Origin: a virus
DNA length: 60,128 nucleotides
Virus record (IMG/VR): IMGVR_UViG_3300007908_000001
Span: 1-60,128 of that record
Direction: 5' to 3' (one strand)
A program made the translations under genes and the position numbers. Positions 17,064 through 51,741 of the stretch are shown here, one piece after another. The notes under the pieces were generated by a model. It had not been told where the DNA came from and searched no databases. It saw nothing but the letters and a program-made list of their open reading frames with translations. Numbering within the stretch: the first letter of the stretch is position 1; each line of letters opens with the position of its first letter.

Positions 17064-17612
17064 CTACCGTTTTATCTTCCATCCGCCGAACATCTTCTGC
17101 GTAGCCACTACGTCATTATTCGTAGCACTGACGATATCGACCATAACGTCGTCCTTCGCATCAATCGACTCTTCAACTACGCCGCTAATCGTAACCGCGA
17201 AACTTTCCTTCTCGCTTTCGGAGGACGCTGCCCAAGTCGCTTCGTCGACGTATACGCGAATCTTGAAGTGATTAACGTTGAATTTCGCGTCTGTGCTGAC
17301 GATGATGCCCTCGGTATCCTCCGCCCAAGTTGCGGTCTTTTCTTCGTAACCTGCGATTGCTCTATCGCGTTGATCGTTTACGAGTTGTTCATCGCGTTCG
17401 GCCTTTTCGGATTCCACTTTCTTACCGTCAGCTTTCGCAGTCTTATCGGATACACGCTTTTCTTCTGCCGCAACTTCTTCCGCGACACGCGCCTCTTTAG
17501 TTTCGTCTGATTCGAAGATAACTCCGATAAATCCTATCGCTAGAAATACAGTTATCACAATAACCCACCAACGCTTGTAAAACGGTTTCTTCGCCTTCTT
17601 AACCTTCGCCAT
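17064..17612 (-). CDS. Membrane-anchored extracellular protein, possible lysogenic conversion factor
   Basis: 182 residues from the ATG at 17610-17612, which has GGGAG nine bases upstream. The N-terminus is basic (MAKVKKAKKPFYKRWW), followed by one membrane helix (VIVITVFLAIGFIGVIF). A charged helical stalk (about residues 35-85) leads to a compact C-terminal domain (FKIRVYVDEATWAASSESEK ... KMFGGWKIKR). The topology places the C-terminal domain outside. It is encoded directly after the integrase and before a terminator, a common place for genes expressed in the lysogen, such as superinfection exclusion factors. No family is named. Confidence 0.75.
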   Translation of the reverse strand: MAKVKKAKKPFYKRWWVIVITVFLAIGFIGVIFESDETKEARVAEEVAAEEKRVSDKTAKADGKKVESEKAERDEQLVNDQRDRAIAGYEEKTATWAEDTEGIIVSTDAKFNVNHFKIRVYVDEATWAASSESEKESFAVTISGVVEESIDAKDDVMVDIVSATNNDVVATQKMFGGWKIKR

Positions 17613-17676
17613 ATTAATCCACTCCCTTATCGTCATATTTACGCAAGTATACCGAATAATGGAAATAGACGCAAGG

Positions 17677-18648
17677 CTAATATTCCACGCCGTCTTCGAT
17701 CGCAGCGTCTAAATCCGTTGAATAAATCGCGACGTATTTCCGTAATTCGTTAATATCGCTATGCCCCATTAACCGTTGCAGCGTAAATACGTCTGTTCCC
17801 GCCTGTATCTTAAACTTCGCGAATGTCCGTCGGAATACATGCGGACTACACTGAACCGCGTCAATTACTCCGCAATTCCGTCCATGCCGTCGTATCTGGT
17901 ACTGTATCGACCCTACCGCAAGCCTATCGTCAGTCGCCGTTATGAAAAGAGCATCGGTACTATCGGAAACACCGCGGACGCGAAGATACGCCGTCAATAT
18001 CGCCTGTAATCGACCTGTTAGCGGTATGCGACGCCCATAGCGATTCTTCGCACGTTGTACGTTAATCGACTTATCCGCGAATAGTACGTCGCCAACGTCT
18101 AACGCGTGTAACTCGGATACGCGAATCCCCGTATCGGCAAGCGTCCGCATAACCGCTAAATCGCGCAGTCCCTCAAACGTCGTAATATTCGGCGCACCTA
18201 AAATCCGGCGTAACTGCGCCTTGCTAAACGTTGGCCCGACTTCGTGACGTTCTTTTAGTACTTCGACTTCATTAGCGGGATTCGTCGTAATCATCCGTTT
18301 GCCTACGCAGAAGTTACCGAATATTTTAGCGGTGCGTACCCGTAAATTGATCGTAGACCTCGCGAGTCCTTGGCGAATAGAGTCCGTTTTAAAGGATTGA
18401 AAGTCGTCTACCGATATATTTTTAATGTTCGATAAATCTACGTCTATATCGACTAGGTGGCGCTGTAACTGAAGCAACTCCTTGCGATAAGACTTCGTAG
18501 TTTCATCCGACAAGCCTTTTGCAATTCCGTTGTTTATAAACGCATCTACGGCATCGCTAAACGAAATGACCCGCGCTACTTCTGCACGCCCAGCCGCTCT
18601 ATTAACTTCCTCGATAACCGACGGGCTAACCGTCCTTTTCCGTGCCAT
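17677..18648 (-). CDS. int: Tyrosine recombinase integrase
   Basis: 323 residues. An N-terminal SAM-like core-binding domain (about 25-120) precedes the catalytic domain. The catalytic set is complete: R176 (ADTGIRVSEL), K201 (QRAKNRYGRRI), H270-x-x-R273 (SPHVFRRTF), H296 (RLMGHSDIN) and Y305 (RKYVAIYS). The length and order are like XerC/D-type phage integrases without a large arm-binding domain. It inserts the phage genome into the host chromosome at attB. The candidate attP lies 180 bases upstream. The start follows GGAGGTTTTTATT. Confidence 0.95.
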   Translation of the reverse strand: MARKRTVSPSVIEEVNRAAGRAEVARVISFSDAVDAFINNGIAKGLSDETTKSYRKELLQLQRHLVDIDVDLSNIKNISVDDFQSFKTDSIRQGLARSTINLRVRTAKIFGNFCVGKRMITTNPANEVEVLKERHEVGPTFSKAQLRRILGAPNITTFEGLRDLAVMRTLADTGIRVSELHALDVGDVLFADKSINVQRAKNRYGRRIPLTGRLQAILTAYLRVRGVSDSTDALFITATDDRLAVGSIQYQIRRHGRNCGVIDAVQCSPHVFRRTFAKFKIQAGTDVFTLQRLMGHSDINELRKYVAIYSTDLDAAIEDGVEY

Positions 18649-18829: not shown

Positions 18830-18901
18830 CGCCCTCGGCGGGAGTCGAACCCACATCGCAAGCTTCGGAGGCTTGCGTGTTATCCATTACACTACTACGA
18901 T
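18830..18901 (-). other. attP: Candidate attP: tRNA-Arg(CCG) lacking a matching 5' acceptor strand
   Basis: Minus strand: D stem GTGT/ACAC with loop AATGGATA; anticodon stem CAAGC/GCTTG with loop CTCCGAA (anticodon CCG, Arg); T arm GTGGG-TTCGACT-CCCGC; 3' acceptor strand CGAGGGC with discriminator G. The 5' acceptor strand reads ATCGTAG and pairs badly, where GCCCTCG is needed, so this is not a working tRNA by itself. Phages that integrate into tRNA genes carry such a 3' part so that the host tRNA is restored on insertion. The identity segment probably runs from about 18895 down to 18830. It lies 182 bases upstream of the integrase start. Confidence 0.75.
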
Positions 18902-19065
18902 TGTCAAGCGGTCATAAACGTAGTAGTGGCGTAGGGTTAGGCGGGTAAGCTGCGTTGTGCCTACGTGGTACTCCGTTCTTTTACGTAGATGTAGCGTAGC
19001 ATAGCGGACAAGCGTCGTCAAGTTTCGAGTACTACCGCATGAGAAATCGCAGTAGTAGCGTACCC
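18885..19065. repeat. Cluster of CGTAGTA-type motifs around attP
   Basis: ACTACTACG (18891-18899) and CGTAGTAGT (18919-18927) form an inverted repeat with a 19-base spacer. Further forms occur in GAGTACTACCGC (about 19027) and GCAGTAGTAGCGTAC (about 19050). The rest of 18902-19031 holds no gene. These repeats may be integrase binding sites. Confidence 0.45.
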
Positions 19066-19244
19066 ATCGGAAGCTTCTTATACGAATCTGCGTAGCTTGT
19101 TAGAAACTCCGTTCTCTCCGTGTTATCTGCGCTGTCTACTCCGTCGTAATTTGAAATTAGCGACTCCACCTTCGCAACTTCCTTCGCCCGAAACTTCTCA
19201 AGTTTCTCGATCATGTCGACGCTTAGATTAATCGTAACTTGCAT
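19032..19244 (-). CDS. Ribbon-helix-helix-like small protein, 70 aa
   Basis: The N-terminus MQVTINLSVDMIEKLEKFRA has the strand-then-helix pattern of ribbon-helix-helix DNA-binding proteins (CopG/Arc type). A charged helical tail follows. The start has GGAGGAGAACGG upstream. It lies downstream of the large ATPase gene and next to attP, so a role in regulating that module, or as a recombination accessory factor, is possible. Confidence 0.55.
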   Translation of the reverse strand: MQVTINLSVDMIEKLEKFRAKEVAKVESLISNYDGVDSADNTERTEFLTSYADSYKKLPMGTLLLRFLMR

Positions 19245-19275
19245 CCGTTCTCCTCCTCGATTTTATTATCGTTAT

Positions 19276-21828
19276 TTATAACGCTTCTTGTAATTCCGCC
19301 CAACTCCGTCCATACAGTTGCGCGTGTCTTTTCGTATAAAACGAATTATCATATCGCAACTCAAACGGTATCGGCGGTAACATTCGGACTAAAAACGCGT
19401 GTATCGGTTCTTTCGTGTTGAGTATCGCTATCGCGTGAAACTTCGGCGTCTGTAGCGCATCTTCAACGGTAAACGTCGGGACCAGTCGTTCCTTCGCGAG
19501 TTCGAACGTTTTCTTATATTCCGACGCGAATAGGAACTGATTAACGCCGCCTCCGATTAGATTCTTCTGTAGGTAATCCGGTAATTTATCCCAGTGGTGA
19601 AACGCGAATATCGAGCCTAGCCGTTCCTTCCGCCCTTCCGTCGCGATCCGTCCCATTAACTCCGCAAGTCCTTTCGACTCTACTTGTTCCGGTTCGTTAA
19701 ATACGATGAAGCATCCGTGTTTCTCCTTATCTTCTTCGGACATCAAGAACCGCGTCATAAGCACTTTTAGCGTTACCCAATGCGCTAACGTGTTGCTGGC
19801 GTTCCCTAATTTCCGTTTAGGCATCCGGACGATAATCACCTTGCCTTCGCGCATCCACTTTTCGAAGTTTAATTCAGGTAACGGCGGTTGCGCGAATATA
19901 TCATGTAACGTATCGTCGCCGAAGAACATGTTCAAGCGGCTTAATATTGCGTCGCATTTGTTGCCGAGTTCTTCGTTCGTTCCCCAGCGGATCAAGTCGT
20001 TCGCTAACCGCAGATTACCGTCCTTCATTAAACGTTCAATCGTATCTGCGCGGAATTCCTCTTCCTCGATAATCCGCTTGATATTATAGAGTGAACCGCC
20101 GGACGCCTTCGACGCTTCCGTTAAATAACGTTGTGACCGCGCTAATCCTTCGAGTTGCATAAAGTCGATCATTTCCGTGGCGAACCGCGAACCTCCTTTA
20201 CGTCCTAACTTTTCGATAACCTCCGTTAAGTCCATCGGAATGATAAAGTCCTCATTTGCGAGGTCTAAGTCGATTATCTTATCCGGAGGTAGTAAGTCGC
20301 GGATGCCGTCCGCCATTCCTTTGTGACCCGGCTGGCATATCCAATCCGGAATAACGAAGGATATTCCGTGCTTCATTGCGCCTTCATAGACGAAGTTTTG
20401 AATCGCGTTATCCTTTCCGCTGCCTTGCTTGCCGATGAACGTGTATCCGGAATAGAAGTTATCCTTCTCGTTCGCCGGTAATCCGACGAGGAATTCCTTG
20501 TCTTTCACTTCCGCGTGACCGATAAGTAGGTTCCGCTTATTACGTAGCGCACTCGGAATAACCGTTTCAACGCGCGTCTTCGCATCCATTTCGTCGGCGT
20601 ATTTAAGCTGTAAATCGCGTATTGGCATTTGTAACGCAAGCTTACTCATTTCGTCCGTCGATACGAGGTTTACATCTGCGTCATACTTCGTTTTAGACGA
20701 TAGCTTCAACGTGTTCAGTTCGTCGATTACGTGCGCACCGGTTTTACGTCCGTTTAATTCGTTATTCTCTGCGATGTCGTTAAGCGAGATTGCTAACGTT
20801 TCGCATAGCGTTTCCCGCGTTAGTCTATCGGAGGAATGACCGGCGACTCGGATGCGCGATTTGAATACCGGAAGATTAATCTTTTCGAGACTAGCACCAC
20901 TTAATTTCGTCGCGCTAATTTCGTCTTCCAACGTATACCCCTTTTCGATAACCTTCGTTTTCGTTACGTCCTTATCCGACTTGAAAAACGAGTTCGATAT
21001 AGCTTCGATCGTATCCGTTAATAAGCTATTTACTTCGTTGATAAATCCGGCGAGTCCCGTCTTAATTATCGGTAACGCCTTCTTCGGACTGAAATTCGTA
21101 CGCTGCGGAACTTTACCCTTCGATAACTTTTCACGCGCCCAAGACGCGTTCTTAATCCACTTCTGCCGGCTTTCGACTTCGTTGCAAATTGATAGACGTG
21201 CGATGTCGCCGTCGTGCTGTAGTTCTTCTACCGTCGTTAAAATCGAGGACATAGGCGTCTTCTTATCGTTTGAGTGCGTGTTTAGCGAGAATATATCGTG
21301 TCGGAGGTATTTCATATCTTGTATAACGGTATCATTTTCGGGGACGTGTATGTGGTCGATAGTAGTTTCTTTGAGCGTGACGTTCATCTTGTTTTCGAGT
21401 CTGCGTTTGAGTTTGACGGCTTGATATTCGGAAGTAGATACATAGAATTCAATCTTGCGCTCGCCGTTGACTTGCCGGAATATCACGTCGAACCACAAGT
21501 AATCCTTTTCGCGATAATGTAGTTTGAGTTTATTCCGTTCTAATCGGCTGCCTAAGTTATTGTACATTTCGTACATCTTATGAATTGAACGCCATAACCG
21601 CTTATTATTACCTGCTACGGTCGCGTGCGGAATTATGCGATACGTTATCATACGGTTTTCTTCATATTCGAAGTAGTCTTCGAGTTTTACCGTAACGATT
21701 TTAGGAGTCCGTTTATACCACGGCTTTTTAAGAATAGTTGGCTCGGATTCGGGCGCGCATATAATAGAAGGAAGTAATTCGTTTCGTAATGAAGGTAACA
21801 TCGGTTCTCTTATCGCGATTTCATACAA
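19276..21828 (-). CDS. HerA/FtsK/TraG-type DNA-translocase ATPase, 850 aa
   Basis: Walker A is GKQGSGKD (residues 466-473) in YTFIGKQGSGKDNAIQNFV. A Walker-B-like strand is CFIVFNEPEQV (706-716), followed by GRIATEGRKERLGSIFAFHH, the helix and sensor pattern of HerA/VirD4/TraG-type hexameric ATPases. The first 420 residues are an unassigned regulatory or membrane-docking region (DYFEYEENRMITYRIIPHAT). No membrane helix is seen in the ATPase itself; two small membrane proteins are encoded just upstream. TTG start with GGAGG six bases ahead. Enzymes of this kind pump DNA or protein in conjugation. In this phage the substrate is unknown. Terminase is separate, so it is not the head-packaging motor. 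Confidence 0.8.
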   Translation of the reverse strand: MYEIAIREPMLPSLRNELLPSIICAPESEPTILKKPWYKRTPKIVTVKLEDYFEYEENRMITYRIIPHATVAGNNKRLWRSIHKMYEMYNNLGSRLERNKLKLHYREKDYLWFDVIFRQVNGERKIEFYVSTSEYQAVKLKRRLENKMNVTLKETTIDHIHVPENDTVIQDMKYLRHDIFSLNTHSNDKKTPMSSILTTVEELQHDGDIARLSICNEVESRQKWIKNASWAREKLSKGKVPQRTNFSPKKALPIIKTGLAGFINEVNSLLTDTIEAISNSFFKSDKDVTKTKVIEKGYTLEDEISATKLSGASLEKINLPVFKSRIRVAGHSSDRLTRETLCETLAISLNDIAENNELNGRKTGAHVIDELNTLKLSSKTKYDADVNLVSTDEMSKLALQMPIRDLQLKYADEMDAKTRVETVIPSALRNKRNLLIGHAEVKDKEFLVGLPANEKDNFYSGYTFIGKQGSGKDNAIQNFVYEGAMKHGISFVIPDWICQPGHKGMADGIRDLLPPDKIIDLDLANEDFIIPMDLTEVIEKLGRKGGSRFATEMIDFMQLEGLARSQRYLTEASKASGGSLYNIKRIIEEEEFRADTIERLMKDGNLRLANDLIRWGTNEELGNKCDAILSRLNMFFGDDTLHDIFAQPPLPELNFEKWMREGKVIIVRMPKRKLGNASNTLAHWVTLKVLMTRFLMSEEDKEKHGCFIVFNEPEQVESKGLAELMGRIATEGRKERLGSIFAFHHWDKLPDYLQKNLIGGGVNQFLFASEYKKTFELAKERLVPTFTVEDALQTPKFHAIAILNTKEPIHAFLVRMLPPIPFELRYDNSFYTKRHAQLYGRSWAELQEAL

Positions 21829-21844
21829 CGTAATCCTCCTTCGT

Positions 21845-22141
21845 TTATTTAGTCGCTAATATACAAACCGTTAAAATTAAGCCAGCAACCATAACGGATA
21901 ACGGTTTCAACATACCGCCCCTACTCACTAAAGGCGATATCATAACGAAGGCTCCCGTTGCAAATACGCCATATCCGGCTATATCGGGCAACGCACCGAC
22001 GAACCAAGTCCACACGTCGCTACCGACTTCTCTAAACCATCCGCCAATTGATTCCGCGACAGGCTTCGTAACCATTTCGTTGCCCTTTTCGTACATACGC
22101 TGTTCAAGTTGCTCCGTCTTCCAGTTTATCCAATCCCACAT
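21845..22141 (-). CDS. Two-helix membrane protein, 98 aa
   Basis: The N-terminal half is amphipathic (MWDWINWKTEQLEQRMYEKG), followed by two membrane helices (DIAGYGVFATGAFVMISPLV and KPLSVMVAGLILTVCILATK) joined by a basic turn (SRGGML). ATG with GGGAG upstream. It lies between the pilin-like and ATPase genes, 13-16 bases from each, so all three are one transcription unit. It may dock the ATPase at the membrane. No named family; a second pilin-like subunit is possible. Confidence 0.75.
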   Translation of the reverse strand: MWDWINWKTEQLEQRMYEKGNEMVTKPVAESIGGWFREVGSDVWTWFVGALPDIAGYGVFATGAFVMISPLVSRGGMLKPLSVMVAGLILTVCILATK

Positions 22142-22154
22142 ATTCGTACTCCCT

Positions 22155-22508
22155 TCAAATTGTTTTTAAGAAATCCCGAATATCCAACGCGTGTCTTGCG
22201 AGTACAAATCCGCAAGCAACCGATATGAGTAATTCTATAGCCTTTGTCCGATGACCGAGCATCCACGCGACACCTGTAAATACGATGATACAAGCCGCTG
22301 CGTAATCTAATCCGGTCATTAACGACTGCCATATGCGGTTAAACGTATCCGCCGCGCCGTCGTTAGCAAACGCAATAGTCGGAAACGTAGCCGCGAATGT
22401 GCCGACCATAGCCGGATAGAGCTTCTTAAACCGTTTACTATCCGGCTTATCAACTGTGTACATCTTGCCGTCGATTTCGATGACATCCAACACTTCGATT
22501 TTCGCCAA
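22155..22508 (-). CDS. VirB2/TrbC-like pilin-type membrane protein
   Basis: 117 residues. After about 30 polar residues comes a hydrophobic segment ending AFPTIAFA-ND (LYPAMVGTFAATFPTIAFA), which looks like a signal peptide with an A-x-A cleavage site. Two more membrane helices follow (YAAACIIVFTGVAWMLG and AIELLISVACGFVLARHALD), joined by HRTK, and a basic end. This layout is that of VirB2/TrbC conjugation pilins. TTG start with GGAGG eight bases ahead. It is the first gene of the ATPase operon. The pilin call rests on topology; a generic small membrane protein is the alternative. Confidence 0.6.
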   Translation of the reverse strand: MAKIEVLDVIEIDGKMYTVDKPDSKRFKKLYPAMVGTFAATFPTIAFANDGAADTFNRIWQSLMTGLDYAAACIIVFTGVAWMLGHRTKAIELLISVACGFVLARHALDIRDFLKTI

Positions 22509-22582
22509 TTAATTATCCTCCTTACGTTTATTTACGTTGATCCGTGGCATACTAACAGGACAGAACGAAAGGGAGTGACGAT

Positions 22583-22651
22583 ATGCACATTGTAATCGGA
22601 CTAATAGTTGGCGCAGGATTAGGAATCCTTTCTAATTTAATCGGGGGTTAA
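22583..22651 (+). CDS. 22-residue hydrophobic peptide on the plus strand
   Basis: A tiny frame: ATG at 22583-22585 behind AAAGGGAGTGACGAT, encoding one glycine-rich membrane helix (VIGLIVGAGLGILSNLIG) and ending TAA at 22649-22651. A plus-strand terminator hairpin follows at once. Orientation is opposite to its neighbours and it overlaps the 3' end of the minus-strand gene at 22648. The good ribosome binding site plus terminator favour a real gene. It could be a small membrane-active peptide; no homologue is claimed. Confidence 0.5.
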   Translation: MHIVIGLIVGAGLGILSNLIGG

Positions 22652-22947
22652 TGAAACAACTTCGGGCCGGATGTATTTCCGGTCTTTTTCGATTGACGCT
22701 GTTTTAACTCCGTAAGACGTTCAGCCGCAGTTTTCGGAAGGCTCTCCGAAGAACGTTCGGTATACGACGGAATAGTTGTCGTTGGTATTTCCGGTAAACC
22801 ATTTCCTTTTGCTGCGATGTCTGCGAGGATTAACTTTTTTACATATCCCGAAAAGTTACGGCGAGCGACGTGTTTTAGTATTTTCTTATCGGTTTCCTTA
22901 CTGCGATTAAAAGCGACCGGTTTGGAAAAACGATTAGGTACTGCCAT
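22648..22947 (-). CDS. Ribbon-helix-helix-like basic protein, 99 aa
   Basis: ATG at 22945-22947 with GGAGG upstream. Residues about 8-45 (PVAFNRSKETDKKILKHVAR, RNFSGYVKKLILADI) match the pattern of plasmid and mobile-element ribbon-helix-helix proteins, with one strand followed by two helices. The C-terminal half is polar and basic (SLPKTAAERLTELKQRQSKK). It precedes the pilin/ATPase operon. Conjugative elements often encode such a protein as a transfer or copy-control regulator, so it may belong to the same module. Confidence 0.6.
   Translation of the reverse strand: MAVPNRFSKPVAFNRSKETDKKILKHVARRNFSGYVKKLILADIAAKGNGLPEIPTTTIPSYTERSSESLPKTAAERLTELKQRQSKKTGNTSGPKLFH
22665..22689 (+). terminator. 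Terminator after the plus-strand mini-gene
   Basis: GGCCGG (22665-22670) pairs with CCGGTC (22679-22684) around an eight-base loop, followed by TTTTT. It lies inside the 3' part of the minus-strand gene 22648-22947, and only makes sense as the end of a plus-strand transcript. Confidence 0.6.
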
Positions 22948-22989
22948 TAGGCGTTTGCCTCCTTTTTGGTTATAGCGTATTGTATGCAA

Positions 22990-23146: not shown

Positions 23147-23196
23147 CAAAAAAGGCGACTGCCCAACGGAATTCAATCCGCCAAACAGTCGCCTTA
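23147..23196 (-). terminator. Strong terminator at the end of the late operon
   Basis: On the minus strand AAGGCGACTG and CAGTCGCCTT form a 10-bp stem around a 28-base loop, followed by TTTTT. It lies directly downstream of the amidase stop (23201), so it ends the long structural and lysis transcript and isolates the module to its left. Confidence 0.9.
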
Positions 23197-24949: not shown

Positions 24950-26263
24950 TTACCAAGTAATTCTGTATCTTTTTCTTTTTCTTACTTGTTCAGCGTTATC
25001 TTTTGATTCGTTTGATTCAGAATGTGGATTAGCAATTTCCCTTCTATATTCAAAATTCTGCCTCTGTATCATGCCAACAATGAAACAAAATATATTAAAA
25101 TAAGTGAACCAACCTTGTATAACAGGTTCTACCATAAAAGTAATAATAAACGCTGTAAATAACGCAATTACTATACCCTTTAACACTACAGGGTGATTGT
25201 ATCTACGAAACGTAATTATCGAGCCAATAGAAATTAACGTAAATAAAACTAAGACAGCAAAAGGGAAAAAACCGCCTTCAAATGCAACATCAAGCCATAA
25301 GTTATGTGCATAATTTAACGGAATTAAAGTTTCCTTCCCTCCCATCGGATTTTCAAATAAACCATTAAAGGTCAGTTTCCAAGCAAGTACTCTCGAATCT
25401 GAACCGATGTCTGTCGATTGCAACCTAGCATAAAGTAAGGTGTTTTCCCAGGCAAATCTGAGCCCAAACATATTTTGATCGAAAAGGTATTTAAATATTA
25501 ACAGAAAGAACGCGGTTGAAAAAATACCCGCAACTTTCTTTAAACTAGCTTTTCTAACAAATAACGTAGTTACCAAAAATGATAATACGATTATCGCGAA
25601 ACCAGACCGATTTCCTAATTGCAGTACACAATAGGTTGCCGCTACAAAACTGAGTAAAGCCATTATTCTAATAGTATTATTATGCTTATCCTTATTATCC
25701 TTCAAGAACACTAAAGGGAGCATAGCTAACCCAAAAGATAATAACGTATTTATTCCTGTTGCTGTGATAAAACTATCGTCCCAAAAATTCATTACCAGCC
25801 TCTGACCCCCGAATGTCTTAATTGCAGAAGTCATATCACCATAAGTGAGTACAGTATTCAACAAACTTAAATAGCCGAATAAAGTAAAGGACACGATAAC
25901 CAAGATTAAATACTGATACATCTTTTTGTATTTACCGTTAGTTACGATATACCCCATCACATATAACGTAAAAGGATATATTAGGTACAATAAGATGGTG
26001 CCATTTGTACTGAATTTGTAATAATACTGAACTAAGGCATAGATGATGCTGAAAACCATAAGTGTTGCAAGAGTTATTGTAAATCTAGTGTTGTATTTAA
26101 ACCTAATCAAATAAATACACATTACCGGGAAAATAAGTAGAGGAATGTAAACCCCCACATTTAAAAAATTAATACAATATAACACCAAAATAAGCATAAA
26201 TACCAGGTCTTTGTAGCTGATTGCCCGTAGATTGTCTCTCTTTGTTAATATATCCAAGTTCAC
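24950..26263 (-). CDS. O-antigen ligase/polymerase-like (Wzy_C) membrane protein, moron
   Basis: 437 residues with about 10-12 membrane helices. The large-loop motif of the Wzy/WaaL family is visible: LGNRSGFAI in one helix boundary and YAHNLWLDVAFEGG in the periplasm-side loop, then a charged C-terminal tail. Family members join or polymerise surface polysaccharide. The gene is much more AT-rich and poorer in CG than the phage backbone, and stands between the fibre and the lysis genes. It is not needed for virion assembly. It may change the host surface glycan in the lysogen, for example to block superinfection. GTG start at 26261-26263; a TTG two codons later has the better-spaced GAGG. Confidence 0.8.
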   Translation of the reverse strand: MNLDILTKRDNLRAISYKDLVFMLILVLYCINFLNVGVYIPLLIFPVMCIYLIRFKYNTRFTITLATLMVFSIIYALVQYYYKFSTNGTILLYLIYPFTLYVMGYIVTNGKYKKMYQYLILVIVSFTLFGYLSLLNTVLTYGDMTSAIKTFGGQRLVMNFWDDSFITATGINTLLSFGLAMLPLVFLKDNKDKHNNTIRIMALLSFVAATYCVLQLGNRSGFAIIVLSFLVTTLFVRKASLKKVAGIFSTAFFLLIFKYLFDQNMFGLRFAWENTLLYARLQSTDIGSDSRVLAWKLTFNGLFENPMGGKETLIPLNYAHNLWLDVAFEGGFFPFAVLVLFTLISIGSIITFRRYNHPVVLKGIVIALFTAFIITFMVEPVIQGWFTYFNIFCFIVGMIQRQNFEYRREIANPHSESNESKDNAEQVRKRKRYRITW

Positions 26264-45399: not shown

Positions 45400-46206
45400 T
45401 CAATTAGCGTTAAACATCGCCTGTAAAGTCGCATCTGGTGCGCTATCTTGACGGTAGAAAACGCTAGGATTGAACGTATATCTATCTGGTTCGTTACCGA
45501 GTTTAATCCGCGCAATCACGTATTCGCCGTCGAATTTCATTAGCGGTAATCTACGCCTTAACGTCCGCACATCCACGCCGATTGCATCCGCCAGTTCTCG
45601 CTGCGTAAACCATCGAATATTCTTCGGGTCACGTTCGAAAGGATCGGCGCACAAGGCGTTAGTCGACATATGAACAAACGGTAACATTCGGTATATTAAT
45701 CCAATGTCATTCGCCTTGACTTCGCGATACACACGCCTAACCTTCGCCGTATACGTCTTGATTACGTATTGATTGTCGATAGCGCCTTTAAAGTGATAGC
45801 GCTCGTTTATGACGTATTTATCGCCATCTTTCGTAATGATTCCGTTATCAATGCACGCCGTTAGGAAGTCGTTAAACGTAGAACGCTTCGTTCCGGTCAA
45901 TTGCAATACGTGTTGCATATCTACAGGCTTCATTGGCGACTTATCCGGATTAACGATAACTCCGTCGTCCCATCCGATGTAACACTGTAGAAGCGTTAAG
46001 TACCCGCATTGAGGCGTTGTCAGCACGTTATATACTTCGTGTAAATGGCGCATATTCGCGTTGGTAAAGCCGATTGAACGTCCACTACGGGATTCCTTCG
46101 CCTTCATTTCGGCATAACCGCGATTACGTTCTTGCGTTGATTGTAGCTCCTTTATTTCGCCTGTTTCTCGGTTAATCATCGCCCATGAATTACTCAACCG
46201 CCTCAC
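45400..46206 (-). CDS. Rep-like winged-helix protein
   Basis: 268 residues. The middle reads QCGYLTLLQCYIGWDDGVIV, then NPDKSPMKPVDMQHVLQLTG and TKRSTFNDFLTACIDNGIIT, a winged helix-turn-helix as in RepA/Rep-type initiators of Firmicute plasmids. A second helix-turn-helix is RWFTQRELADAIGVDVRTLR. It lies beside iteron-like repeats. It could start replication at this locus or act as a transcription regulator. Its start is unsure: a GTG at 46204-46206 or a TTG two codons on, both inside the methyltransferase gene end. Confidence 0.65.
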   Translation of the reverse strand: MRRLSNSWAMINRETGEIKELQSTQERNRGYAEMKAKESRSGRSIGFTNANMRHLHEVYNVLTTPQCGYLTLLQCYIGWDDGVIVNPDKSPMKPVDMQHVLQLTGTKRSTFNDFLTACIDNGIITKDGDKYVINERYHFKGAIDNQYVIKTYTAKVRRVYREVKANDIGLIYRMLPFVHMSTNALCADPFERDPKNIRWFTQRELADAIGVDVRTLRRRLPLMKFDGEYVIARIKLGNEPDRYTFNPSVFYRQDSAPDATLQAMFNAN

Positions 46207-47167
46207 CGCCCTTTAACGCTTGCGCTTCGTCAATTCTGCGTCGTGCTATTGCTACGTAATCCGCGTCCTGCTCGATAGCTACGAAGTCACGTCCGGCATT
46301 GATCGCCGCGACCGCTGTTGATCCACTGCCCGCCGTTAGGTCGACTACCGTGTCGCCGGCGTTGCTGAACGTCTTAATTAAGTCTTCGAGTAGTAGGACG
46401 GGTTTTTGCGTCGGATGGAAACCGTCATAGTCCTTTTTGTAGCGGAGAATATTCGACTTGTACTTGCCGCCTTCCCAAAGATTGAACGTACTTGATAAGT
46501 CGTGTTTGAATTTCTCGTCGACACGTTTAAGAACGCTGTACTCGGTAAAGCCGTCCATTTCATTTATCTGATACAGATGGATTAATTCGTTGTATGTCTG
46601 TTCAGTGCAAAGCGTAAATTGCGAACTCTCTTTGTTTCCCTCGAGGAAGTGTTGTGATCCTCCGTGACCTAATTCCTTAAAGAACCTACTTCTCGAATAG
46701 CTCGTAAAATGCCTGACTTTTAAAGCGTATTCCCGTAGAGGATGTAATGCCCCCGTGTCGTACGTCTTGCTAAAGACGAGCACGTCCTCGTAATAACTAA
46801 CTGGTGCCTTCTTTGCTATCAACGCGTTTGCGAAGTGGTCTTTTTCCCAAATCATGCGATACGAAAACGGTATATTAGCGTTAGCCTCGTTTATAAGTCG
46901 CGTCGTATACGGTTCTTGACTGAATAAAACCATTTTACCGTTCTTCCGTAGAATCCGATTCGCTATCTCGTAGATTCGTACCGGGTCAATAGCCTCGTCC
47001 CACTCCGTTTTATCAATCATGCCGTGGTCTAAGCCGCTACCCGCGCCAATTCCTTTAACCGTTCCATACGGCAAATCCGTCAGTATTAAATCAACGCTAC
47101 CACTCGCTATCTTATCGCTTTCTATTAAGCAGTCGCCTGTCAGTAATGCGTTTTTAATTTCCTTCAT
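46190..47167 (-). CDS. DNA amino-methyltransferase, beta type
   Basis: 325 residues. The catalytic motif DLPYG (motif IV, a DPPY variant) comes early and the SAM-binding DLTAGSGST (motif I) late, the beta-class order. FHPTQKP and FSQEPYT flank the target region. It methylates adenine-N6 or cytosine-N4. There is no restriction partner, so it probably protects phage DNA or marks it for other use. ATG with GGGGAGCGAT upstream. Confidence 0.92.
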   Translation of the reverse strand: MKEIKNALLTGDCLIESDKIASGSVDLILTDLPYGTVKGIGAGSGLDHGMIDKTEWDEAIDPVRIYEIANRILRKNGKMVLFSQEPYTTRLINEANANIPFSYRMIWEKDHFANALIAKKAPVSYYEDVLVFSKTYDTGALHPLREYALKVRHFTSYSRSRFFKELGHGGSQHFLEGNKESSQFTLCTEQTYNELIHLYQINEMDGFTEYSVLKRVDEKFKHDLSSTFNLWEGGKYKSNILRYKKDYDGFHPTQKPVLLLEDLIKTFSNAGDTVVDLTAGSGSTAVAAINAGRDFVAIEQDADYVAIARRRIDEAQALKGGEAVE

Positions 47168-47606
47168 TCATATCGCTCCCCTTCGATTTTCCCCTAATGT
47201 GAAACATTGCGCGGAAGGGCGTAGGGATTCGCCTGTTCGGTTACGGTAATGAGCCGCTTCCTATCCGCACATAACGACGACCGACGGAGTTGTACCGCCG
47301 CTTACGCCTAACATCGTCTTAATACGCAACGCAAAAAGCCCGCCGACATTCCGACGAGCTTAAGCGGTGCTATTTCGTTACTAGTCTTCCGCAGCTTGCG
47401 TTTTTATGTCGGAGCTAAGGCTGTTGGCTTTCGCGTTGACACGCCCTCACACGCTACTAATCCGACTGCCGGCGCACGTAGTCCGGCTATGTACGCGAGC
47501 CTTGCCGTAAGGTGCTACGGAGTATGCTCGCTGTAAATTATTGTCGTTTCATTCGTACACATACTAGTACAGACGTTTCGACGTTTTTATAACGTTATAT
47601 CCGTAA
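47168..47606. other. 440-base non-coding region
   Basis: No gene on either strand that I can support. It holds a minus-strand terminator at 47331-47361 and several short inverted stretches (GCCGGCGCACGTAGTCCGGC near 47472). A small RNA is possible but not shown. It separates the small-regulator operon (49.4-47.6 kb) from the methyltransferase, which probably has its own promoter here. Confidence 0.4.
47331..47361 (-). terminator. Terminator between 47.6 kb gene and methyltransferase
   Basis: On the minus strand GCTCGTCGG and CGGCGGGC (with G-U pairs) around AATGT, followed by TTTTT. It ends transcripts coming from 47607 and upstream. Confidence 0.65.
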
Positions 47607-47993
47607 TTAATAAATCTTCCGCGTTGGCAAGCGATGATCTACGCCGTCCGTGCCGATAGTTTCCGGTACTTTCCGCATAGTTAATCCGCGGTAATATTCC
47701 TCGTCTTGCCTTTCGCTGCTAATCGGATATTCCGTATTCCTTACTTTATACGGCGTAACGTCCGTTAATATGTCGTAAATTATCAGCGAACCTAAACGGC
47801 TTAAAGCGCTAGTCGGAGCGTGCCTTCCGACTTCTGCGTAGTATGCTTCCGTAATGTCTGCTGTCTTATCCACGCGCTGTTGAGCCGTCGTTTCGCCACC
47901 TTTAACGAGCGCAAACAGTAAGTCGATGTATTCGTCTAGCTGCGCTGTAATCACGCTGTAATCGCCTGTAAACGTTGCTGTAATATTCGTCAT
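47607..47993 (-). CDS. Hypothetical protein, 128 aa
   Basis: Opens MTNITATFTGDYSVITAQLD; the first 85 residues are helical (EYIDLLFALVKGGETTAQQR, TEAYYAEVGRHAPTSALSRL), the rest polar and basic. It overlaps the stop of the methyltransferase gene upstream. No family is recognised. Confidence 0.7.
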   Translation of the reverse strand: MTNITATFTGDYSVITAQLDEYIDLLFALVKGGETTAQQRVDKTADITEAYYAEVGRHAPTSALSRLGSLIIYDILTDVTPYKVRNTEYPISSERQDEEYYRGLTMRKVPETIGTDGVDHRLPTRKIY

Positions 47994-48664
47994 GCGGACA
48001 CCTCCTGTAGTCGTTCGTTTGCGATACGTGCGTAGTCTTCTTCGATTTCATATCCGATAAACTGGCGGTCATTTCTTAACGCCGATATTGCCGTCGAACC
48101 CGTTCCCGCGAAACCGTCGAAAACTACGTCGCCTTTATCGCTACTATTACGTATGAATATATCGAGTAAGTCTGTTGGCTTTTCGGTGGGGTGCGTCAAC
48201 CTAACGCTAGGAATCTTAGCGCAATCTATTACGTCGGGGATACGCTTCTCACGGAATAGCGTCCGACCTTTGTGACCGAATAACACGAATTCATGCTTCG
48301 GTCCATACGCGCCTTTTAAATCCCCGCTTCCGTGATTGTTCTTATTCCATACGATAAGGTTCTTTAGTTTGAAATAGCGCTCGAATTCCGTCTTAAAGAA
48401 GTCGATGTGATGCCACGAACAGAACATGTAAATCGCGGTATCATCCTTTAATATCCGATGACATTCCGCAATATAATCCGCTATTAATTCGTGTGCGTCA
48501 ACGTCATTAGTGATGTGTCGGAACTTATCGCTTACTACGCGTCGACGACTTTGGTAGTTCATTAAATACGGCGGATCGGTAACGATTAAATCGACGCTAC
48601 CATCCGCCATACTGCGCATACCTTCTAATGTATCACCGTTTATAATTTCGTTAATCTTCGTCAT
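47990..48664 (-). CDS. DNA amino-methyltransferase, small
   Basis: 224 residues. DPPY in DLIVTDPPYLMNYQS (motif IV) and FAGTGSTAISAL (motif I) identify an N6-adenine/N4-cytosine methyltransferase of beta type; RLTHPTEKPTDLL is the usual motif near the end. It lacks a large target-recognition domain, so specificity is short. It overlaps the sigma-4-like gene. It is the second of three methyltransferases and has no restriction enzyme beside it. Confidence 0.92.
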   Translation of the reverse strand: MTKINEIINGDTLEGMRSMADGSVDLIVTDPPYLMNYQSRRRVVSDKFRHITNDVDAHELIADYIAECHRILKDDTAIYMFCSWHHIDFFKTEFERYFKLKNLIVWNKNNHGSGDLKGAYGPKHEFVLFGHKGRTLFREKRIPDVIDCAKIPSVRLTHPTEKPTDLLDIFIRNSSDKGDVVFDGFAGTGSTAISALRNDRQFIGYEIEEDYARIANERLQEVSA

Positions 48665-50222: not shown

Positions 50223-50249
50223 AAAGACGCCACGTTCGGCGTCTTTTTT
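50223..50249. terminator. Bidirectional terminator between converging genes
   Basis: AAAGACGCC-ACGTTC-GGCGTCTTT with T-runs on both strands. It ends the plus-strand 59-residue gene and, read leftward, the middle operon that finishes with the cytosine methyltransferase (stop at 50248). Confidence 0.92.
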
Positions 50250-51741
50250 ATTCGCTTAAATACGGTATAATTCGTTCCCCTATCGCTTGAATTACGTTTA
50301 CCGTAACCGCATTACCGGCTTGCTTGTATCGTTGTGAATCCGATAGACCAGCGTCAACTGCCTTCTGATGTGCTTCATCGGAAAATCCTTGCAGACGCCA
50401 ACATTCTAACGGTGTTAATTTACGGATTCGGTATCTCGGAATTTGTCCGATAGCTACGCCATGACGGTCTTGCGTATTTATCGTAAATGCCGGTTCGTCG
50501 TTCTCTTTGAACCTTCGCCCGTTCTGACGCTTTTCTTCGCGTTCCGGCGTAAGTACAGGACGGACTTCTTCGATATGTGTACGCCTTCCTTTGTTAATTC
50601 CGCTAGGGGCGATTCCTTTTGTATAGTTAGCGTCTAAGCAATACGAGAGGGCTTCGCCATTTGCGATTACTTGCGGTTCCGCGCGACCAATCATATACGG
50701 GTCTTTATATATCCGAGCTGTCACCGTAGAAGCTACGTCTTGATATAATCTCGGCTTACCTTCGCGCTTAGCTTGACTTACGTCAATTAACGTAGGATTA
50801 TCGTCGTTCTCACGCCCATCTAACTGCTCAACCAATGCAGCCGTCTTATCTTCGGATAAGTAATACTTTTCGTCTGCTTCCGTCTCTAACACGTCCCGTA
50901 AGCGTGTGACGACTTCGCCTTCTTGGGGAAAATCGAAGTTAAACGTCTTAATGCCTTCTAACGCTTGGATACGTTCTTTACCTCGCGGAATTATCGTACT
51001 CCCATTAATAACCCAAGGTTCTGGCGTTATTAAATCGTCCCTAACTGCTACGATAAAGATTCTTTCGCGATTCTGTGGGACGCCGAAGTATTTCGAGTTT
51101 AATATAGTGAAGTCTACGGTATATCCAATTTCGCACAGTGTTTCGATCATAACGTTTAACGTCCGACCTTTATCGTGATTAACGAGTCCTTTTACGTTTT
51201 CAAGTAGAAGTACTTTCGGTTGTTTCTCCTTCGCAATACGGACGATTTCAAAGAATAACGTACCACGTACATCTTCGAAGCCCTTTCGATTTCCGGCGAC
51301 ACTAAATGCTTGACAAGGAAATCCACCTACTAGTAAATCGTGATTAGGGAAGTTCACCTCATCTAATTTTGTAATATCTCCGAACAATCGCTCATCACCG
51401 TGTATCGCCGTGTATGACTGTTTTGCAAACTTATCTATCTCGGATGCTATTACACAATTTCCGCCTAACTTATCTAAAGCCGTTTCGAATCCGCCAATTC
51501 CGCTGAACAATGATACGTAATTAAACTTCGTCAAATTATCGCTCCCTTTCGTTACTAATTCAAAAACCTTATAACCGAACGCGTTACAACTTAATTCAGT
51601 ACCTTCGTCGTCTACGTAAAGGAAAGAGTCGTCATCTGCCTCGGTAACTTCGTATTCCTTTCCGAAAGTTAAAAACGGATATTTACTTTCGATATATCGT
51701 ACCTTATCGCCCTTCTTCGGAAACTCCTTTAATCCGCTCAC
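50248..51741 (-). CDS. C5-cytosine DNA methyltransferase with N-terminal SH3-like domain
   Basis: 497 residues. The methyltransferase begins near 74: YVSLFSGIGGFETAL (motif I), GGFPCQAFSVAG (motif IV, catalytic Cys), LLLENVKGLV (motif VI, ENV), NSKYFGVPQNRERIF (motif VIII). Motifs IX-X stand near the end (LECWRLQGF, QAGNAVTV). Residues 5-65 (KKGDKVRYIESKYPFLTFGK ... FLYVDDEGTE) form an extra small module shared with the gene at 52.0 kb. It probably blocks host restriction of phage DNA. No restriction enzyme is linked. Confidence 0.95.
   Translation of the reverse strand: MSGLKEFPKKGDKVRYIESKYPFLTFGKEYEVTEADDDSFLYVDDEGTELSCNAFGYKVFELVTKGSDNLTKFNYVSLFSGIGGFETALDKLGGNCVIASEIDKFAKQSYTAIHGDERLFGDITKLDEVNFPNHDLLVGGFPCQAFSVAGNRKGFEDVRGTLFFEIVRIAKEKQPKVLLLENVKGLVNHDKGRTLNVMIETLCEIGYTVDFTILNSKYFGVPQNRERIFIVAVRDDLITPEPWVINGSTIIPRGKERIQALEGIKTFNFDFPQEGEVVTRLRDVLETEADEKYYLSEDKTAALVEQLDGRENDDNPTLIDVSQAKREGKPRLYQDVASTVTARIYKDPYMIGRAEPQVIANGEALSYCLDANYTKGIAPSGINKGRRTHIEEVRPVLTPEREEKRQNGRRFKENDEPAFTINTQDRHGVAIGQIPRYRIRKLTPLECWRLQGFSDEAHQKAVDAGLSDSQRYKQAGNAVTVNVIQAIGERIIPYLSE

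Follow-up and report, generated by a model that had tools for sequence, protein, structure and literature searches.

A conserved gene unit of a VirB4/HerA-type ATPase and a VirB2/TrbC-like membrane partner in a phage genome: a possible reduced DNA translocon

In the phage DNA analysed here (60,128 nucleotides, the whole of which is called the window), the genes for an RHH-type protein, a VirB2/TrbC-like membrane protein, a two-helix membrane protein and a large ATPase form a single conserved, co-diverging unit. The ATPase is predicted to adopt a VirB4/HerA/TrwB-type fold, and the chances are about even that the phage uses the module as a DNA translocon, a reduced relative of type IV secretion systems. 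The translocon idea itself is already in the literature: gp31.1, gp31.2 and gp32 of SPP1 were proposed as a membrane translocon in 2018 (PMC6316719), and the Tyroviruses were noted in 2022 (PMC9703825).

Every gene of the initial annotation was present where it had been placed, all on the minus strand and with intergenic spacings of 13 and 16 bases as given there. Two elements had escaped it, the 22-residue plus-strand ORF and the tRNA-like segment that appear below with the other features of the locus.

22648–22947, minus strand: RHH-type small protein, 99 residues, ATG at 22947 (phrog_17574, E 5e-27)
22583–22651, plus strand: hydrophobic micropeptide, 22 residues, MHIVIGLIVGAGLGILSNLIGG, previously unannotated ORF
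22548–22554, minus strand: motif TAGTATG, promoter or operator candidate in the divergent intergenic region
22155–22508, minus strand: VirB2/TrbC-like membrane protein, 117 residues, TTG start (Pfam TrbC, E 1.2e-5, just under the curated cut-off)
21845–22141, minus strand: two-helix membrane protein, 98 residues, in the VirB3 position (phrog_20592, 1e-16)
19276–21828, minus strand: ATPase of the HerA/VirB4/VirD4 superfamily, 850 residues (phrog_5156; SPP1 gp32 homologue)
19032–19244, minus strand: 70-residue protein, RHH-like at its N-terminus, following the ATPase gene after 31 bases; module membership doubtful
23152–23195, minus strand: intrinsic terminator at the boundary of amidase gene and module, 19-pair stem, T-rich tail
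17677–18648, minus strand: tyrosine recombinase (integrase) adjoining the module (Pfam Phage_integrase, 4e-26)
18837–18895, minus strand: tRNA-like segment without the 5' acceptor strand (Rfam tRNA, 45.5 bits, model positions 7–64)

The ATPase gene starts with TTG behind the ribosome-binding site GGAGG, and the start at 22989, upstream of the RHH-like gene, is likewise a TTG. The terminator reported earlier is real, with its stem lying immediately behind the amidase stop. The tRNA-like segment beside the integrase is a candidate attP core; no host tRNA matching it was found in seven genomes, all of one genus, a result that carries no weight either way. As had been reported, no relaxase was seen among the window proteins scanned, a scan that was not exhaustive. 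Pfam detected neither VirB6/TrbL nor VirB8 among the module's genes, and the window module contains no wall hydrolase. A reading as a defence system was dropped, as the PADLOC models gave no match for any of the five proteins.

The conservation of the module is evident from its recurrence, in about 85 loci, as an RHH-type protein, a TrbC/VirB2-like protein, a two-helix membrane protein and a HerA/VirB4-type ATPase. Of the 84 loci whose upstream DNA was long enough, 72 have the TrbC-like gene by profile. Close relatives in which the ATPase lacks the membrane genes, which would have counted against the initial reading, were not found. Divergence of the ATPase is closely tracked by that of its neighbours, with Mantel r of 0.91 for the VirB2-like protein, 0.80 for the two-helix protein and 0.66 for the RHH-type protein. 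This co-occurrence and co-divergence exclude chance hydrophobic proteins. A DNA translocon is favoured by the DNA-related genes around the ATPase: that of the RHH-type protein, an actin-like ParM/Alp gene in about 18 loci and, in SPO1 and BcoS-136, a Replic_Relax gene that follows it. One relative, moreover, belongs to an element of conjugative appearance that also encodes VirB4 and TrbL.

The Walker A motif of the ATPase, GKQGSGKD, lies at residues 466–473 as first read, and the Walker-B-like strand could be located as FIVFNEP at 707–713. A swap of the Walker A Thr/Ser and the Walker B Asp covaries perfectly, of which no report was found in the literature. In the AlphaFold2 model (pLDDT 86), the best Foldseek matches were to TrwK/VirB4 (E 1.9e-12), with an alignment that spans the whole chain and whole-chain TM-scores that are low, about 0.3. 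Further matches were HerA, TrwB (TMt 0.6) and TdpA, the order of closest folds being TrwK/VirB4, then HerA and TrwB. On the Foldseek result, the module thus has the VirB4/VirD4-class ATPase that marks a type IV secretion system. The window ATPase itself matches no Pfam family, and a distant family member exceeds the T4SS-DNA_transf cut-off. Of the original HerA/TraG/FtsK-type assignment, the HerA/VirB4/TrwB fold is retained and FtsK is not: there is no PF01580 match, FtsK is absent from the 50 best fold matches, and the protein has no hydrophobic segment that could form the N-terminal membrane domain of FtsK/SpoIIIE. A role as a genome packaging motor in place of the terminase was ruled out, because the window encodes its own TerL and portal.

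For the 117-residue protein, the TrbC/VirB2 match of the window copy is joined by TrbC matches in 29 of 38 homologues (best 6.4e-7) and by T4SS_pilin matches in 11 of them (both Pfam). The topology first described, a signal-like helix ending AFA^ND followed by two helices, holds: the signal-like helix covers residues 24–41, with an AxA site, and the hairpin residues 52–83 and 87–105. With the position fixed, 60 of 67 sequences pass as having a signal peptide, against a shuffle mean of 42.6 and a maximum of 53, which is only moderate support; a first signal-peptide count was uninformative because 73% of shuffles passed. The AlphaFold2 model is a helical hairpin only, uninformative and matching no PDB entry and no solved pilin. 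A single-sequence PDB search found nothing, and the best that the pilin-like profile gave for VirB2 in the PDB was E 0.095. The initial reading of a conjugation-like ATPase that shares a single conserved unit with a VirB2/TrbC-like protein is supported. The surprise originally expressed at that partner is only partly warranted, given the 2018 proposal for SPP1.

The 98-residue protein resembles VirB3 in position and topology; it has no VirB3 Pfam match, and 4 of 35 homologues weakly match TrbC. An M23 wall peptidase is fused to this protein in 20 loci (Pfam, 2.8e-27) and is a separate gene in 6, making 26 related loci with M23.

RHH-like proteins had been placed on both sides of the module. 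The upstream one is conserved, being found by profile in 64 of 84 loci having upstream DNA, and the downstream 70-residue protein is not conserved among relatives. The upstream protein, which has no Pfam RHH match, carries the motif NFSGYVKKLI and occupies the same place as SPP1 gp31; its sequence suggests an RHH fold. The micropeptide ORF overlaps its gene by 4 bases and is divergent from the VirB2-like gene. Comparable ORFs, encoding hydrophobic peptides of 17–26 residues, are present in most loci (49 of 66, against 12 of 773 control genes), and their substitutions are biased to the third codon position, a purifying pattern. No report of such a divergent hydrophobic peptide gene was found in the literature. 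Of 51 distinct intergenic regions, 23 contain the motif TA[GT]TATG, where shuffles predict 1.2.

In a DNA translocon, the RHH-type protein would bring phage DNA to the membrane, and the two small membrane proteins would form a channel or a short pilin-like assembly. The ATPase, which lacks a membrane helix, would dock on it and drive DNA export, either from the cell or through a septum, although the data are compatible with a protein substrate as well. An M23 peptidase, the module's own or another, would open the wall, and the receiving compartment would be a neighbouring cell or the forespore. Expression is early in lytic relatives. The fuller proposal, that phages of spore-formers send their genome to neighbours or the forespore without a virion, by a T4SS-like pump that has no relaxase and that combines a swapped ATPase active site with a membrane micropeptide, is put forward tentatively, as the less probable case.

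In a more specific version of the DNA translocon, the module would act in parallel to SpoIIIE and deliver the phage genome to the forespore when the host sporulates, making virospores. We regard this as rather unlikely, and its probability overlaps with that of the DNA translocon because the forespore is a special destination of the latter. Many phages of spore-formers, SPP1 and SPO1 among them, carry the module, and its phage homologues come from such phages, with the 'Microcystis' phage MaeS as an exception. SpoIVA is found in 23 of 23 bacterial genomes with a strong ATPase match (E<1e-20), whereas the sample as a whole has it in 268 of 399 (hypergeometric 8e-5). This association is not clean, because the restriction to certain hosts coincides with a phylogenetic split, Bacillales on one side and Lactobacillales and Staphylococcales on the other. 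Also in its favour, phage genomes are known to be entrapped in spores (PMC9429907), FtsK/SpoIIIE-like genes and ParM were noted in Bacillus phage Grass (PMC3853049), and SPP1 gp31.2 and gp32 are dispensable in vegetative cells (PMC6316719). A forespore pump alone, however, leaves early expression in vegetative SPP1 infection unexplained.

That same early expression and dispensability would suit superinfection exclusion or envelope modification, with membrane proteins that block other phages or conjugative DNA and the ATPase as assembly motor; exclusion is among the likely roles that the SPP1 authors list for such early genes (PMC6316719). A superinfection-exclusion-like gene lies near the module (17064–17636), and the conserved micropeptide could serve as an inhibitor or immunity factor. 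Nevertheless, an 850-residue motor, a pilin-like protein, M23 and a co-diverging protein of DNA-binding type exceed the needs of known exclusion systems, and we consider this role improbable.

VirB4/T4SS-type ATPases export proteins too. SPP1 gp33, whose gene lies directly behind gp32, exemplifies the kind of surface protein that could be the substrate, and a gp33-like early tailspike gene follows the ATPase in both SPP1 and 000TH010. Across the loci, however, no conserved candidate substrate gene lies behind the ATPase and the conserved extra partner is of DNA-binding type, which makes protein secretion a distant prospect.

Slightly less credit still is due to FtsK-Xer-like maintenance, in which the ATPase would help the adjacent tyrosine recombinase to resolve dimers or partition genes to segregate the DNA, with the membrane proteins as anchors. 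The window, MMB025, Slash, MaeS, TPDSL_ph2, PJN02 and BcoS-136 all have a tyrosine recombinase close to the ATPase, and actin-like ParM/Alp genes neighbour the module in about 18 loci. Yet both are missing from many loci, the window protein has no FtsK Pfam match, and lytic SPP1 retains the module with no integrase nearby. Finally, dispensability in SPP1 and the split ATPase gene of Slash could point to a functionless, decayed remnant of a conjugative element, but frames open in nearly all loci, co-divergence, the purifying pattern of the micropeptide and perfect active-site covariation make this very improbable.

Should DNA be moved by the translocon, the phage genome could spread independently of virions or the phage survive in spores. 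The module is shared by the classic model phages SPP1 and SPO1, where its genes have long been without an assigned function, and no tested function for SPP1 gp32 was found in the literature. It would also offer mechanistic studies a T4SS-like machine of very small size. Two precise, cheap experimental handles are the micropeptide and the active-site swap with its covariation.

Among known systems, SPP1 has four matching genes in identical order, gp31-gp31.1-gp31.2-gp32, under the early promoter PE5 (PMC6316719). The window ATPase is 58% identical to that of L052, a locus whose gene lengths are as in SPP1. SPP1 is lytic and uses PE5, whereas an integrase gene is present in the window phage and a terminator precedes its module. 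Expression in the lysogen, as initially suggested, is not a general rule, because lytic SPP1 reads the homologues early. The order pilin-like, two-helix, large ATPase is that of VirB2-VirB3-VirB4 in R388 Trw and Agrobacterium VirB, a likeness reinforced by the best fold match (TrwK/VirB4) and the Pfam TrbC match. In contrast to these systems, the window module has no VirB6, VirB8 or relaxase that was seen, its two-helix protein has no VirB3 match, and its active-site residues are swapped. HerA/TdpA and FtsK-HerA pumps share the ATPase superfamily by fold, but no NurA or Tdp partner was seen here, nor an FtsK membrane domain. Bacillus phage G, with gp156, likewise carries an ATPase of the family, in a fuller T4SS-like set with TrbL/VirB6-like gp153 and VirB4-like gp155. 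Tyrovirus gp11-18, with ParM, an RHH-type protein, a T4SS-type protein and a replication-relaxation gene, is a region for which its authors suggested a conjugative-plasmid origin (PMC9703825); it is a distant version of the module, with filament and Replic_Relax genes that were not found beside that of the window. Conjugation itself offers precedents for the translocon reading: pLS20 transfer depends on RHH auxiliary proteins (PMC5675868), and in R1 the conjugation machine is acted on by ParM/ParR (PMC4949242).

All five genes that the initial annotation had placed at 19032-22947 were found in position on the minus strand, as was the spacing of 13 and 16 bases between the genes for the 117-, 98- and 850-residue proteins, each of which is preceded by a Shine-Dalgarno site. 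The terminator claimed between the late operon and the module is real, sitting behind the amidase gene, and the window is indeed the genome of a siphovirus, which encodes its own TerL, portal, tape measure protein, DNA polymerase, DnaB helicase and primase. An integrase gene lies 0.4 kb behind the 70-residue gene, and the segment between them is the probable attP core:

18837-18895, tRNA-like segment without the 5' acceptor strand (Rfam, 45.5 bits)

Elsewhere in the window, a membrane-anchored protein of 190 residues (17064-17636) matches superinfection-exclusion families (phrog_4980, E 1e-8); a DUF4352 protein is likewise close to the module in phage D6E. A polytopic membrane protein of 437 residues resembling the O-antigen ligase/polymerase type (24950-26263) is encoded upstream of the genes for holin and amidase. 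Three genes match DNA methyltransferase families (46190-48664 and 50248-51741), the match at 50248-51741 being interrupted by a large insertion that may be a domain of its own.

The ATPase belongs to phrog_5156 (E 1e-252), a family of unknown function. Its AlphaFold model (pLDDT 86) is matched best by TrwK/VirB4 (E 1.9e-12, whole chain aligned), followed by HerA, TrwB and TdpA; at whole-chain TM-scores of about 0.3, the fold of the domains is clear but their arrangement is not. Two active-site positions of the family covary perfectly:

Residue 473 of the window ATPase, Walker A
Residue 711 of the window ATPase, Walker B

In 71 of 121 homologues, the Walker A Thr/Ser is replaced by Asp and the Walker B Asp by Asn, while the other 50 have D or E at the Walker B position together with T or S in Walker A, mixed pairs being absent from all 121. 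The acidic residue seems to have swapped position between the two motifs, perhaps in few evolutionary events, such that the sequence count is not one of independent cases.

The 117- and 98-residue proteins and the upstream ribbon-helix-helix (RHH)-like protein fall into phrog_5422, phrog_20592 and phrog_17574, respectively, all families of unknown function. The description of the 117-residue protein as pilin-like held at the level of sequence: its sole Pfam match is TrbC/VirB2 (E 1.2e-5, slightly below cut-off), and of 38 homologues scanned singly, 29 matched TrbC (best 6.4e-7) and 11 T4SS_pilin (best 1.6e-5). Structure lent it no support, as its AlphaFold hairpin matched no solved pilin, and in a family profile search of the PDB, VirB2 chains ranked first at an E-value of only 0.095. 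The protein is thus called VirB2/TrbC-like on the strength of its sequence, not of its structure.

Depending on the tblastn query, 49-68 phage records contain a homologue of the ATPase, as do 14 and 57 loci in IMG/VR and some bacterial genomes; carriers include SPP1-like phages (L052), SPO1 (gp27.4), TP-84, GBK2, Slash-like phages, LysYB1 and phage G. With an iterated profile, the VirB2-like gene was detected at 72 of the 84 loci that have over 1.4 kb of upstream sequence, the RHH-type gene at 64 and the two-helix gene at 55; the E-values are optimistic, the neighbourhood being the whole search space, and several of the loci are near-duplicates. Most loci that the profile missed (Slash-like phages, TPDSL_ph2) encode a similarly sized protein of like topology in the same position. 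With duplicates removed, pairwise divergence correlates with that of the ATPase for the VirB2-like (r 0.91), two-helix (0.80) and RHH-type (0.66) proteins (p 0.001 each). An M23 peptidase domain is fused N-terminally to the two-helix protein at 20 loci, and a separate M23 gene lies nearby at 6 more. ParM/Alp actin-like genes are close to the module at about 18 loci; a Slash-related contig instead carries a tubulin-like (TubZ/PhuZ type) gene upstream (L085, 3427-4527). A Replic_Relax gene follows the ATPase in SPO1 and BcoS-136. Phage Slash (L013, 5260-7751) has its ATPase gene split into two frames, but in its relative Stahl, to which it is 97% identical, the gene is whole. The module of Microcystis phage MaeS (L014) is nearest to that of Slash-like Bacillus phages (ATPase 51% identical), and its stated cyanobacterial host may therefore be wrong.

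The region between the RHH and VirB2-like genes contains a recurrent TAGTATG-like motif and, on the opposite strand, a further reading frame:

22583-22651, plus strand, hydrophobic micropeptide ORF, MHIVIGLIVGAGLGILSNLIGG

This ORF of 17-26 codons has a ribosome-binding site of its own, is oriented divergently from the VirB2-like gene and occurs at about 50 loci (in SPP1, MHFFISLLIGYIVGVLV); no annotation of it was found in the phage records or phage literature compared. By fixed criteria, it precedes 49 of 66 VirB2-like genes versus 12 of 773 other genes of the same loci. In two groups, variable columns favour the third codon position (4/2/14 and 7/2/19) and synonymous changes exceed nonsynonymous ones (218 to 90 and 107 to 31), which is how a translated gene would be expected to change; nonsynonymous changes are the more numerous in two groups of greater divergence.

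DNA translocation is the best-supported activity of the module, given the ATPase superfamily, the co-diverging DNA-binding-type partner, and the neighbouring filament and Replic_Relax genes. Conjugation of pLS20 requires RHH proteins (PMC5675868), and ParM/ParR contact conjugation proteins of R1 (PMC4949242). Delivery into spores fits the host range: SpoIVA is present in all 23 genomes with a strong ATPase match, versus 268 of the 399 sampled genomes (hypergeometric 8e-5), and the hosts of homologue-bearing phages are spore-formers, one odd record excepted. However, phylogeny confounds this correlation. Exclusion, protein secretion and dimer resolution are possible roles; the literature yielded no experiment bearing on any of these, nor on translocation or its destination.

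The module itself was already known in outline from work on SPP1 and Tyroviruses. SPP1 gp32 resembles TrwB, VirB4 and FtsK, and could make a translocon with the membrane proteins gp31.1 and gp31.2; gp31.2 and gp32 are non-essential, and early promoter PE5 drives these genes (PMC6316719). In Tyroviruses, ParM, a ParG-like RHH protein, a T4SS protein and a replication-relaxation protein co-occur (PMC9703825). The present analysis adds the relation to VirB2, the wide distribution, the M23 fusions and two features for which we found no earlier description in the phage literature on the module, the micropeptide and the residue swap.

Distant relatives of the ATPase were also reached when 399 genomes of the class were searched by profile: one lies in what looks like a conjugative element, with homologues of VirB4 (AAA_10, E 4e-81) and TrbL as neighbours, and another scores above the T4SS coupling-protein cut-off. 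In the jumbo phage G, the T4SS-like set is fuller, with TrbL/VirB6-like and VirB4-like proteins encoded beside the family member gp156 (L163, record 86015-98138). The lineage may therefore be one of coupling-type ATPases, working alone in small phages.
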